From the NCBI GenBank assembly GCA_015232935.1, contig JADFYT010000003.1, positions 1-42,653 on the forward strand: 42,653 bases of DNA, written 5' to 3'. The DNA comes from Desulfamplus sp. (GTDB taxonomy: Bacteria > Desulfobacterota > Desulfobacteria > Desulfobacterales > Desulfobacteraceae). A program made the position numbers and the translations under genes. How positions within the stretch are numbered: position 1 is the first letter of the stretch; each line of letters begins with the position of its first letter. A model generated the notes under the pieces. That model was not told where the DNA came from. It made no database searches and was given only the letters and a program-made list of their open reading frames with translations. Below, piece after piece: positions 9,177-13,324 of this stretch.

Positions 9177-9992
9177 TTATAAACGTTCAACGTTGAGTCT
9201 CTCCATCATTTTTATTGTACTTATCCTGAGTCTGTTCATTGATCTGGAAAGCTCCGAAAGCTCTTTTAGCTTGTCCGCTGTTCTAAGTTCATGTTTGAGG
9301 TCTCCCATGCTCATTGATTCTGCGGCCTCTGTGAAGTATTTAATCGGATCAACGATATTTATTTTTGTCATAAACATGCTAAAGATGACTATCGCAACTC
9401 CAACCATGATTGAAGCTGCCTGAATCTTTGCCATAAGCCGTACTTTATCTTCAGCGTTGTATTGCATTAAAAGACCCGCGCTATCCATCTCTTCAAGTAG
9501 TTTCATGTTATTATTAATCACATAATTAATCGCACTTATATCAGTGAATTCAGAATAAATTATTCTATCAATGTTATTCTTGAGTGATATCCAGACAATA
9601 AAAACCTTTTCAAGCTGCGTATTGATAGCTCCCCTTACAGCAGGTGGGCACTCCCTAAATTGGGTCATTCCAATGTCAACAGGAACCTTGCCCCCATCTT
9701 TGAGAGCATACAGAGTTGATTCAAATACTTTAATAGATGAGAGAACCTGCTCTTTCCAAATCTTGACGTCATCATTTTTTTTATTAGCTTTTTGATTGCT
9801 GACCAGATTAAAACATATAAGAATATCTTTGACTATTTTTTGAACGAGCATTCTTTGGCGGCCTGATATATTCAAGATAAAACTATCATCTTTCTGTTGG
9901 TTGGTAATCTGAGTTGTTGAGAGAAAAATTGCTGTCATCAGGCATAAAAAAGCTATGAAACTTCTCATGGTATATCCGAGTATAGTCCTCAT
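9177..9992 (-). CDS. PilJ-type sensor domain + HAMP membrane protein without output domain
   Basis: A 271-residue membrane protein: TM1 near residues 10-26, a periplasmic region containing NISGRQRMLVQKIVKD (about 41-57), the hallmark of the PilJ-type N-terminal sensor domain, TM2 near 195-212, then a HAMP-like segment to about 265 beginning after Pro (DPIKYFTEAAESM) and ending with the C-terminus. Full-length relatives continue into a methyl-accepting, kinase or cyclase domain; here the frame stops soon after HAMP. The chosen ATG has AAGGA 8 nt upstream; an in-frame TTG 18 bases earlier has no better signal. A 14-bp inverted repeat (10099-10112) lies in the divergent promoter region shared with the next gene. 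Role unknown; possibly senses a periplasmic ligand and acts through a partner. Confidence 0.75.
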   Translation of the reverse strand: MRTILGYTMRSFIAFLCLMTAIFLSTTQITNQQKDDSFILNISGRQRMLVQKIVKDILICFNLVSNQKANKKNDDVKIWKEQVLSSIKVFESTLYALKDGGKVPVDIGMTQFRECPPAVRGAINTQLEKVFIVWISLKNNIDRIIYSEFTDISAINYVINNNMKLLEEMDSAGLLMQYNAEDKVRLMAKIQAASIMVGVAIVIFSMFMTKINIVDPIKYFTEAAESMSMGDLKHELRTADKLKELSELSRSMNRLRISTIKMMERLNVERL

Positions 9993-10098
9993 CGAAAATT
10001 CCTTTAACAAGTCAAGATTTGATTTTAATGTTTGATATTGACTTTAGTGCCAAATAATGATGGAGTATTTAATAAATTGTCTTTTATTTGTCAAGAAA

Positions 10099-10385: not shown

Positions 10386-10440
10386 CGAGAATTGAAGAGA
10401 GAAAATCTGTAAAAAAATGGATTTAATTCAAGGAGGTGCC

Positions 10441-10815
10441 ATGATTTTAAAACGAGGTTTCTTTACACTGCTGTCTGTTATGTTGTTTTTTCTTTTAATT
10501 ATAGCTGATAATGGGCTGACAGATGATATAAAAGACAGGATGAGGCAACGTCTGCCAACCATTGTACAGATGAAACAGCAGGGTATTATTGGCGAAAACA
10601 CCTCAGGTTATCTTGAGTATGTGTCAGGAAACAGAGTCAATCAGGATATAGTGAACAGCGAAAACAGAGACAGAAAAGAGGTTTATTCAATAATTGCACA
10701 ACAGCAGGGGGTGCCTGTTGAAAAAGTCGAGCAGCTCAGAGCTCTTCAAATTGTCCAGAAAGCGGTAGCTGGTGAATTTCTTAAAAAAGAGGATGGCACC
10801 TGGTATCAAAAATAG
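10441..10815 (+). CDS. ydbL: YdbL-like exported protein (DUF1318)
   Basis: A 124-residue exported protein from the ATG preceded by AAGGAGG (an in-frame upstream ATG has no ribosome site). The N-terminal hydrophobic signal sequence covers about residues 5-24. The mature part follows the DUF1318 pattern: a helical stretch with TIVQMKQQGIIGENTSGYL (relatives: K..G.VGE...GYL), an N-R-D rich middle, then helix GVPVEKVEQLRALQIVQKA and the end GEFLKKEDGTWYQK. In E. coli YdbL assists the YdbH-YnbE lipid-transport pair. It lies 55 bp downstream of the YnbE-like gene, so the two are very likely co-transcribed. Confidence 0.75.
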   Translation: MILKRGFFTLLSVMLFFLLIIADNGLTDDIKDRMRQRLPTIVQMKQQGIIGENTSGYLEYVSGNRVNQDIVNSENRDRKEVYSIIAQQQGVPVEKVEQLRALQIVQKAVAGEFLKKEDGTWYQK

Positions 10816-10975: not shown

Positions 10976-11869
10976 TTATATAAAAAGGATTGATATTTCA
11001 GCCCTGCGTTCAAGAATTTTTTTGTCAGACATAACCCTGCCATCAAGTCGGTATTCTCCTGTGGTTGCGATCTGGAATACAGATGGTTTTACGCCATTTT
11101 TGACAAGCTCATGGACAATATTTGCTGCTCGAGCTGCCCCCAGTTCCAGGTTGGACGGGTACTGTTTTGTGTGGATCCTGTCTGTATCTGCAAACCCGTC
11201 TATCCTGATTCTTACATTATATCCCTTGATCAATTGTGCAAGTCTTTTTAGAAAGACCTTGTACTCGCTTGCAATTCTTGCACTTCCCGAAGCGAACAGG
11301 ATCGGAAGCAGATTTTCCATTTTCAGGCCACTCCCGTCGCTTGAAATTTTAAGCCACTCATCCAGTCCCGCATCTCTTATCTCCTGTGAAATCCTATTTT
11401 TCAAGGCATCAATATCAAGGTCAGAATTTAGAGGATAGGATGACATGGGATTATAGGTATTTATCTTTGTGTGATCCGTGACCTTATATCTTTCTTGTCG
11501 TAGCAGCTCATTGAGCCTGCTGTTTTCCCTGAATGCTGCCTGAATCTTTTTTTCCTTGATACTGACAGACTTGTGCATATGCCATGGGACAGGCTCATCA
11601 AGATCCTGCAAATGATAAATCCTGTTCTGGAGCAAATCCTTTTCATTTACGAGAAATATGATCTGATCCTCATTTGCCCTTATCCTCTCCTGCATCTGCA
11701 TAATGTATCCTGTCTGCTGCATCTCTTTTGACAAAGACTTTTCTGAAGGCTCGGGAAACGGGAACTCTTCTGCTCCTACAAAAGTAATGGTGCAGCAACA
11801 TATGAAGAGCACAACAAACATATTTGAAATCACATTTGCTGACAATGGGGATTTGGGCATGGAATTCAT
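10976..11869 (-). CDS. OmpA/MotB-domain envelope protein with coiled-coil stalk
   Basis: A 297-residue exported protein: a signal or anchor segment at about 11-33, a charged helical region at 45-130 predicted to coil, and a C-terminal OmpA/MotB peptidoglycan-binding domain (about 185-297). The domain shows LPILFASGSARI (strand 1), RIRIDGFADTD (225-230 region), NLELGAARAANIVHELV (helix) and ILERRAEISI, including the conserved late Arg pair near 288-289 that contacts diaminopimelate in the family. AGGAG precedes the ATG. The next gene on the same strand is an LPP20 lipoprotein, 36 bp upstream, so the two form an operon transcribed leftward. It could be a cell-wall anchor for that lipoprotein; it is not a standard MotB because a MotA partner is absent. 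Confidence 0.82.
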   Translation of the reverse strand: MNSMPKSPLSANVISNMFVVLFICCCTITFVGAEEFPFPEPSEKSLSKEMQQTGYIMQMQERIRANEDQIIFLVNEKDLLQNRIYHLQDLDEPVPWHMHKSVSIKEKKIQAAFRENSRLNELLRQERYKVTDHTKINTYNPMSSYPLNSDLDIDALKNRISQEIRDAGLDEWLKISSDGSGLKMENLLPILFASGSARIASEYKVFLKRLAQLIKGYNVRIRIDGFADTDRIHTKQYPSNLELGAARAANIVHELVKNGVKPSVFQIATTGEYRLDGRVMSDKKILERRAEISILFI

Positions 11870-11905
11870 TTTTTTCTCCTTTTCGGGACAAGATCAAGTA
11901 AACGA

Positions 11906-12535
11906 TTATTTTTGATTATAGTAATAATAATTACCACACCAAGGGTATGAATCACACCTGGTCGCATCGCCTGAGAAAACTCTTGCCAAAAAACTTTTGC
12001 GGCGTGGCGAAGCTGGCACCACTCCATTGCCGATTCCAGATGGCCACCAGATCATGTCAGATTCTGTAAAGTATATTCTGAGTTGCAGTTTTGCGTTAAA
12101 GATCCCATAACCTTCCTCTTTTACTTCAACTACCTGAACCCCACGTAGCCATGACTGTGTTTTGGTACGGATAACATCATAATCAATAATTCCGTTAGAA
12201 GTCTGTGAATAGGCATCAACATAAACACCTCTTATTTTTTCAACAAGCTGTCGATATCCATCATTTATGGCAGCTCGCTCTGCCATTAGCCGTCCCTGGC
12301 CTGTATTGATTGCAGTCTCAGGAATCAACCCCTTTCCAACCACGTCAAACGTCACTATTCTCTGTTGAGAGGTGCTGTCATTTTCAGAAAACTCGACCGT
12401 GCCGCCAGTTGAACTGAGATTGTGCTTGCCTGGCTGCTGTTCAACATAGAGACATCCGGTCAGTATAATGGTAATTATCAGAGTGGCTGTTGAAAATAGG
12501 AGTGCGACCTTGGAAAATAGCATTTTTTCTCTCAT
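11906..12535 (-). CDS. LPP20-family lipoprotein (FlgP-like fold)
   Basis: A 209-residue lipoprotein from the ATG that has AAGGA 8 nt upstream (two further in-frame starts upstream lack a site). The signal peptide ends in LTGC with Cys28 as the lipidated residue. The mature part matches the LPP20 pattern: strand VTFDVVGKG, helix RLMAERAAINDGYRQLVEKIRGV, and the C-terminal WLRGVQVVEVKEEGYGIFNAKL. LPP20 domains occur in surface lipoproteins and in flagellar basal-disk or H-ring proteins such as FlgP and FlgT. The unusual C-terminal tail is rich in Tyr, Cys and Asn (residues 195-209). It lies upstream of, and probably in an operon with, the OmpA-domain gene. Confidence 0.78.
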   Translation of the reverse strand: MREKMLFSKVALLFSTATLIITIILTGCLYVEQQPGKHNLSSTGGTVEFSENDSTSQQRIVTFDVVGKGLIPETAINTGQGRLMAERAAINDGYRQLVEKIRGVYVDAYSQTSNGIIDYDVIRTKTQSWLRGVQVVEVKEEGYGIFNAKLQLRIYFTESDMIWWPSGIGNGVVPASPRRKSFLARVFSGDATRCDSYPWCGNYYYYNQK

Positions 12536-12745
12536 CTTATCCATCCTTTTAAAGATTAAAAAAATTGGCATAACTGTTGTCAAACGGTATATTATAAATA
12601 ATAATCACAATGACTCCACAATCGGTAGGAACTGTTGAAAACTGAAAATTTCAAGATTGAAATAGAGACTCAAAACTTGCGAGGTTGAACATAAAATATT
12701 GAAAAAAGATGTCTGCAATAAAAATACCAAATTTAACGATGTGCT

Positions 12746-13324
12746 ATGACAAAAATATTTTTTTGCCTGATAATTATGATTTTACCATCTCTGGAAGCAA
12801 TTTTTTGTCCATCTCTGCTTTACGGTAAAGATACTTTGCCTGTATATTATGTCAGATTTGATATAAAATCCGTGGATAACCGGATGGCAAGGTCTAACCT
12901 TTTGATCGTACCATCAGACAATGAGTTCAGGCAGGAAGGGTTTTTGGATTTTGTAATTTCAGGAAGTGCTGATTATTCAGCCACAGGAACCAAAGGGGTC
13001 GATATTCAGACAAGAGCTGCACATAATGCAATCAAAAATTTCCTTGAAGCCAATGGACTCCAATCCGTCAAAAGTCAGTCAACCACCGTTAATGGTTTGG
13101 CACATGGTCAGTCAATGGTAAATGGACAGACTGTGGTCAGTTTTGAAGGTGCTGTAAAATTACCCTATAAAGTTATACAAGGCTCTTTTAACAAGCAAAC
13201 CGGAATTTATTCTGTAACCATTGAGTTAAGTTTTGCCCCTCTGGCATTTCCGGATAAATGGAAGGATATGCTGTTTAGACATCAAATAAAAATGTTATTC
13301 AATGAATTCAAATCATTCTTTTGA
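12746..13324 (+). CDS. exported protein of unknown function, LPP20-like layout
   Basis: A 192-residue protein with an N-terminal signal sequence (hydrophobic 3-24, likely cut near Tyr26-Gly27) and no lipobox. No family recognised with confidence. The order of elements mirrors the divergently encoded LPP20 lipoprotein: a strand (FVISGSADYS), a helix with paired alanines (TRAAHNAIKNFLEANG), then a strand hairpin with G-x-Y (YKVIQGSFNKQTGIYSVTIEL). I infer a remote LPP20-type fold, unproven. The start has no clear ribosome site; an ATG in another frame lies 7 bases upstream. A weak terminator-like hairpin (13344-13373) follows. Confidence 0.6.
   Translation: MTKIFFCLIIMILPSLEAIFCPSLLYGKDTLPVYYVRFDIKSVDNRMARSNLLIVPSDNEFRQEGFLDFVISGSADYSATGTKGVDIQTRAAHNAIKNFLEANGLQSVKSQSTTVNGLAHGQSMVNGQTVVSFEGAVKLPYKVIQGSFNKQTGIYSVTIELSFAPLAFPDKWKDMLFRHQIKMLFNEFKSFF

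Follow-up and report, generated by a model that had tools for sequence, protein, structure and literature searches.

A probably motility-linked locus in Desulfamplus that joins a FlgP-type lipoprotein to a predicted wall-binding protein and to an exported protein whose family has not been described

The window analysed here is a 42,653-nucleotide stretch of contig JADFYT010000003.1, from a genome of the Desulfamplus group that is 64% complete. Three genes within it concern us, and we call their products P1, P2 and P3 (Table 1). P1 and P2 share a strand, with P2 upstream and a gap of 36 bp between them, and P3 runs divergently at a distance of 162 bp from the longest reading frame of P2. The first-pass annotation saw an LPP20 lipoprotein and an OmpA-domain protein in one operon with an exported protein facing away from them, and all three reading frames are where it placed them. 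It also remarked that the window holds no flagellar genes. This is correct; the same genome encodes FliG and a flgG-flgA-flgH-flgI-flgJ-flgN run, recognized by position and sequence and, in the case of FlgI, by family. A PilJ-HAMP sensor-like protein (9177-10010, minus strand) and a DUF1318 exported protein (10417-10815, plus strand) adjoin the locus.

Table 1. Features of the locus, in positions of the window
Feature	Position	Strand	Description
P1	10976..11869	-	secreted, 297 aa; signal peptide, coiled coil, C-terminal MotB/PomB-type OmpA domain
P1 OmpA/MotB-type peptidoglycan-binding domain, residues 191-272	11054..11299	-	Pfam PF00691, E=7.2e-13
P2, FlgP-type LPP20 lipoprotein	11906..12583	-	Pfam LPP20; matches solved FlgP
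P2 SHS2/LPP20 core, residues 74-172	12068..12364	-	strand, helix, ~30-residue insert, strand hairpin; AF2 model
Sigma54-like -24/-12 element TGGTATTTTTATTGCA	12714..12729	-	GG-N10-GC, directed at the P2-P1 operon
P3, exported protein	12746..13324	+	192 aa; signal peptide; divergent to P2

P2 contains an LPP20 domain (PF02169) that scores above the curated Pfam cut-off (E=4.6e-7). Translation probably begins at the ATG at 12535, which follows AAGGATGG, for a protein of about 209 amino acids with a Tyr-rich C-terminal tail. The lipobox reads LTGC, with the Cys codon at about 12452-12454. This residue, Cys44, is invariant in the alignment and there is no Asp at +2, and we take P2 to be a predicted outer-membrane lipoprotein. 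When a profile built from 33 homologues was compared with chains of known structure, five sequences matched, and all of them are FlgP-like lipoproteins: Campylobacter jejuni FlgP (9hmf, E=3.6e-15), Vibrio FlgP (8z5n, E=1.9e-4), 9yfg, 9yec, and 9yds, the last of which is annotated as FlgP. The best of these is the FlgP of the C. jejuni basal disk, which is much nearer to P2 than the Vibrio protein is. The AF2 model, built from six sequences, has a core of one strand (74-86), a helix (95-116) and two further strands (149-158 and 161-172) with a pLDDT of about 80, and a Foldseek search of the PDB with this model returned 9hmf_A as the sole match at E<=0.001 (E=7.9e-6, probability 1.00). The insert within this core is poorly modelled, with low confidence at residues 123-147; it aligns to C. 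jejuni FlgP almost without gaps, across the stretch where the insert between the helix and the second strand is the ring-forming hairpin of that protein (PMC12222027). In sequence and in modelled fold, P2 resembles the solved FlgP proteins.

The C-terminal domain of P1 is closest to the B subunits of flagellar stators. Of its 19 solved matches, 16 are named MotB, MotS, PomB or flagellar motor protein; the best is MotB (6ysf, 2.5e-19), followed by MotS and PomB. The two canonical residues of the peptidoglycan pocket, an Asp and an Arg, do not vary across the P1 alignment (D228 and R247). In MotB and PomB stators the channel helix carries an essential Asp. No such helix is present in P1, where a signal peptide free of Asp is followed by the coiled coil, and its homologues begin in the same signal-peptide-like way. 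We argue that P1 is not a stator, since a cleavable signal peptide and then a long coiled coil stand in place of the Asp-bearing channel helix. Its architecture suggests a protein that should grip the wall but would be unable to conduct ions. Nor is it MotY by sequence: the OmpA domain was the only domain found, it is of the MotB type, and P1 has no match to MotY_N, the N-terminal domain of MotY.

P3 is a different matter. It has no match in Pfam or NCBIfam, Pfam finds nothing across 35 of its homologues, and its profile gives only chance matches to the PDB. The family has a recognizable pattern: it opens with a hairpin-like stretch at the N-terminus, continues with a helix that carries RAxxNALKxLLxxxGLKSV and with the motif SYEG, and ends in a C-terminal helix that follows FPDxW. 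In one order-level genus (L071, L121, L123) it has a lipobox and is predicted to be a lipoprotein there. It was found only in its order: a sample of 287 genomes from across the phylum gave 2 matches, each of them within the order, and a contig search with the P3 sequence found five Desulfamplus loci only. It had been suggested that the order of strand, helix and hairpin in P3 mirrors LPP20. The likeness is visible by eye, but a profile-profile comparison does not bear it out: hhalign of P3 against LPP20/P2 gave P=0.014, no better than the control pairs P3-P1 and P2-P1 (0.021-0.022), and shallow and deep alignments had the same outcome against controls. None of the 35 family members matches LPP20, and the AF2 model of P3 from a shallow six-sequence alignment has a pLDDT of 36. 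Judged by the databases searched, P3 represents an undescribed family. In one single-contig genome (G033:C1:2694616-2695163) a stop and a shift of frame interrupt P3 while P1 and P2 are kept, perhaps a recent loss.

The three genes mostly stay together. Of 50 relatives, 45 have P2 divergently adjoining P3, and 36 of those 45 have P1 as well, beside P2, so the co-occurrence raised by the first-pass annotation is a conserved one. P3 might be a functionally unrelated neighbour that only shares a divergent promoter region with a P2-P1 flagellar accessory. It has no detectable similarity to any flagellar protein, and it stands apart from P2 in three genomes (G024, G075, G078). We consider this unlikely, though it is the strongest of the alternatives. 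The divergent pair is kept in several order-level families despite differing surrounding genes. Among the 390 genomes of the class that were compared, 69 have P3, 70 have a strong P2 match and 68 have both, so that 68 of 69 genomes with P3 have P2 even where the two are unlinked. This co-occurrence and the gene order suggest that P3 belongs to the same structure as P2 and P1. Several relatives also carry extra copies of an LPP20 lipoprotein gene or of an LPP20-OmpA pair, either in tandem or at separate loci that lack P3 (L127:2980-5292, L075:3723-7235, L076, L077, L078). In three relatives (L068, L122 and L128) P2, or P1 where the locus has it, is followed by genes for a small lipoprotein and a DUF350-like membrane protein, joined in L068 and L128 by one for a larger membrane protein that looks like spermidine synthases.

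The presence of the locus tracks flagella. In the same 390 genomes P3 and flgI occur together in 64, P3 alone in 5, flgI alone in 148 and neither in 173, which puts flgI in 64 of 69 genomes with P3 versus 148 of 321 without it (Fisher 4e-14; the test ignores phylogeny). Four of the five genomes with P3 and no flgI have fliG (G032, G040, G243, G376), and the fifth (G014) is 70% complete. For the 98 nearest relatives the corresponding counts are 46, 4, 15 and 33 (Fisher 2.6e-10, again ignoring descent). Where these relatives are at least 90% complete, FlgI is found in 37 of 37 with P3 and is absent from 24 of 35 without it. The same contrast is seen inside genera g13 and g14 and in family f35. 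The type IV pilus protein PilQ is present in 97 of the 98 relatives, so a link to type IV pili does not account for the pattern.

A second P2-family gene lies among fli, flg and mot genes in five relatives from three other families (L130-L134). The order is fliG, fliI, the P2 paralogue, then flgD and flgE in L130, and flgD, flgE, the P2 paralogue, then motA, an OmpA-domain motB and fliM in L131, with other genes between; L132-L134 are similar, and the contexts taken together include fliG-fliI, fliK-flgD-flgE and motA-motB-fliM. These paralogues match the P2 profile and do not match Pfam LPP20 at 1e-5. Exported proteins of 320-410 and 830-1320 amino acids, repeat-like in sequence, stand beside the P2 paralogues in several genomes (among L130-L136), and these are possibly surface or motor-associated.

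Could the locus instead encode a general tether between outer membrane and peptidoglycan that has nothing to do with the flagellum? Its co-occurrence with flagellar genes would then come from larger, more complete genomes or from a shared lifestyle. LPP20-domain proteins need not be flagellar, and both OmpA and LPP20 domains are known in non-flagellar envelope proteins. P3 was found in no flagellar operon, and the genes next to it are tex, dtd, dacB or pyrD. It is also missing from 148 of 212 flagellated relatives, and it is not essential for flagella because so many of them do without it. We nevertheless think this reading improbable, more so than that of an unrelated P3. The nearest solved structures are FlgP for P2 and stator B subunits for P1, within the same genera the locus is absent from those near-complete genomes that have no FlgI, the P2 paralogues sit inside flagellar clusters, and the PilQ control departs from the pattern. 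The linkage of the cluster to motility is well supported by the match of P2 to FlgP, by the co-occurrence of P3 with flgI and by these paralogues. The earlier idea of a ring or basal-disk-like, wall-anchored module linked to motility has held up on these points and on the kinship of P1 to stator B subunits.

A true Vibrio-type H/T ring (FlgT, FlgO, FlgP, MotX, MotY), with P2 as FlgP, P3 as a FlgT- or FlgO-like protein and P1 as MotY, would have an analogous set of parts (an LPP20 lipoprotein, a periplasmic OmpA-domain protein and an exported partner) and P2 does match Vibrio FlgP, but we regard it as very unlikely given the closer match of P2 to Campylobacter FlgP, the MotB-type domain of P1 with no MotY_N, and a P3 that matches neither FlgT nor LPP20, FlgT_M having passed its cut-off in 0 of 20 genomes with sub-threshold matches only and none of these at the P3 locus.

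The region between P2 and P3 also has something to say. Across eight Desulfamplus loci it has a mean identity of about 40%, but one 16-mer in it, TGCAATAAAAATACCA, is kept apart from a single C/T variant. Its complement is the element listed in Table 1. The window has no other match to the pattern of this element; the expected number is about 0.8 for the whole window and about 0.003 for this intergenic region. The 16-mer was also considered as an alternative start of P3; this was dropped because the frame stops at once in several species, and we read it as a sigma54-like element on the opposite strand. In most other genera of the family the element is kept in a weaker form, GG-N10-GT, which overlaps the start codon of P3, and in five order-level loci (L072, L116, L118, L119, L120) full- or near-consensus sites point at P3. 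Strict sigma54 sites (TGGCA-N6-TTGC) precede flagellar operons in the loci with P2 paralogues, and precede the paralogue itself in L131, L134 and L136; 12 of the 24 strict sites in the 775 kb searched fall before flagellar operons or P2 paralogues. The promoter-like site suggests that P2-P1 is probably expressed from a sigma54 promoter, as flagellar genes of relatives would be.

We believe the best explanation, and one in which we place considerable confidence, is an accessory of the flagellar motor: a FlgP-type ring or disk that is anchored to the cell wall and whose genes lie outside the flagellar cluster. The structure would belong to the motors of Desulfobacteraceae-like sulfate reducers. 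P2, by its homology and fold, would polymerise under the outer membrane into a ring or disk around the L and P rings. P1, with its MotB-type domain and conserved pocket residues, would grip peptidoglycan and tether the disk or nearby stators to the wall. P3 would be an exported and sometimes lipid-anchored partner made from the same divergent promoter region. A bolder reading goes further. Here P3 is a new family of motor component, P1 is a new channel-less, stator-type wall anchor that fixes the FlgP disk, and the whole is a third, independently assembled outer-membrane motor disk besides those of the Campylobacter and Vibrio types. We offer this only tentatively, as a serious possibility to which we give somewhat less than even weight.

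The closest known system is the basal disk of C. jejuni (9hmf; PMC12222027). Its FlgP, like P2, has the LPP20/SHS2 fold and a lipobox and is found in flagellated genomes. Unlike it, P2 has its Tyr-rich tail and is paired with a coiled-coil protein bearing a MotB-type domain and with P3. C. jejuni FlgQ and Helicobacter pylori HP0838 (FapH) resemble P3 in being exported partners encoded beside flgP. FlgQ is modelled as a repeat of two FlgP units (PMC12222027), whereas P3 has no FlgP similarity by profile, a contrast drawn from the published description. Chaban et al. report that homology searches found no such accessory proteins in delta-proteobacteria (PMC5758724). A genome note on Desulfocapsa does list FlgP, but gives it a locus tag that FlgH and FlgI also bear (PMC3739170).

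The locus suggests a function for the unannotated P3 family, and the distance of its genes from the flagellar ones may be why it has been missed so far. Many members of this order of sulfate reducers carry FlgP-type proteins, here with two unexpected partners, and so the origin of outer-membrane motor disks becomes testable outside Campylobacter and Vibrio.
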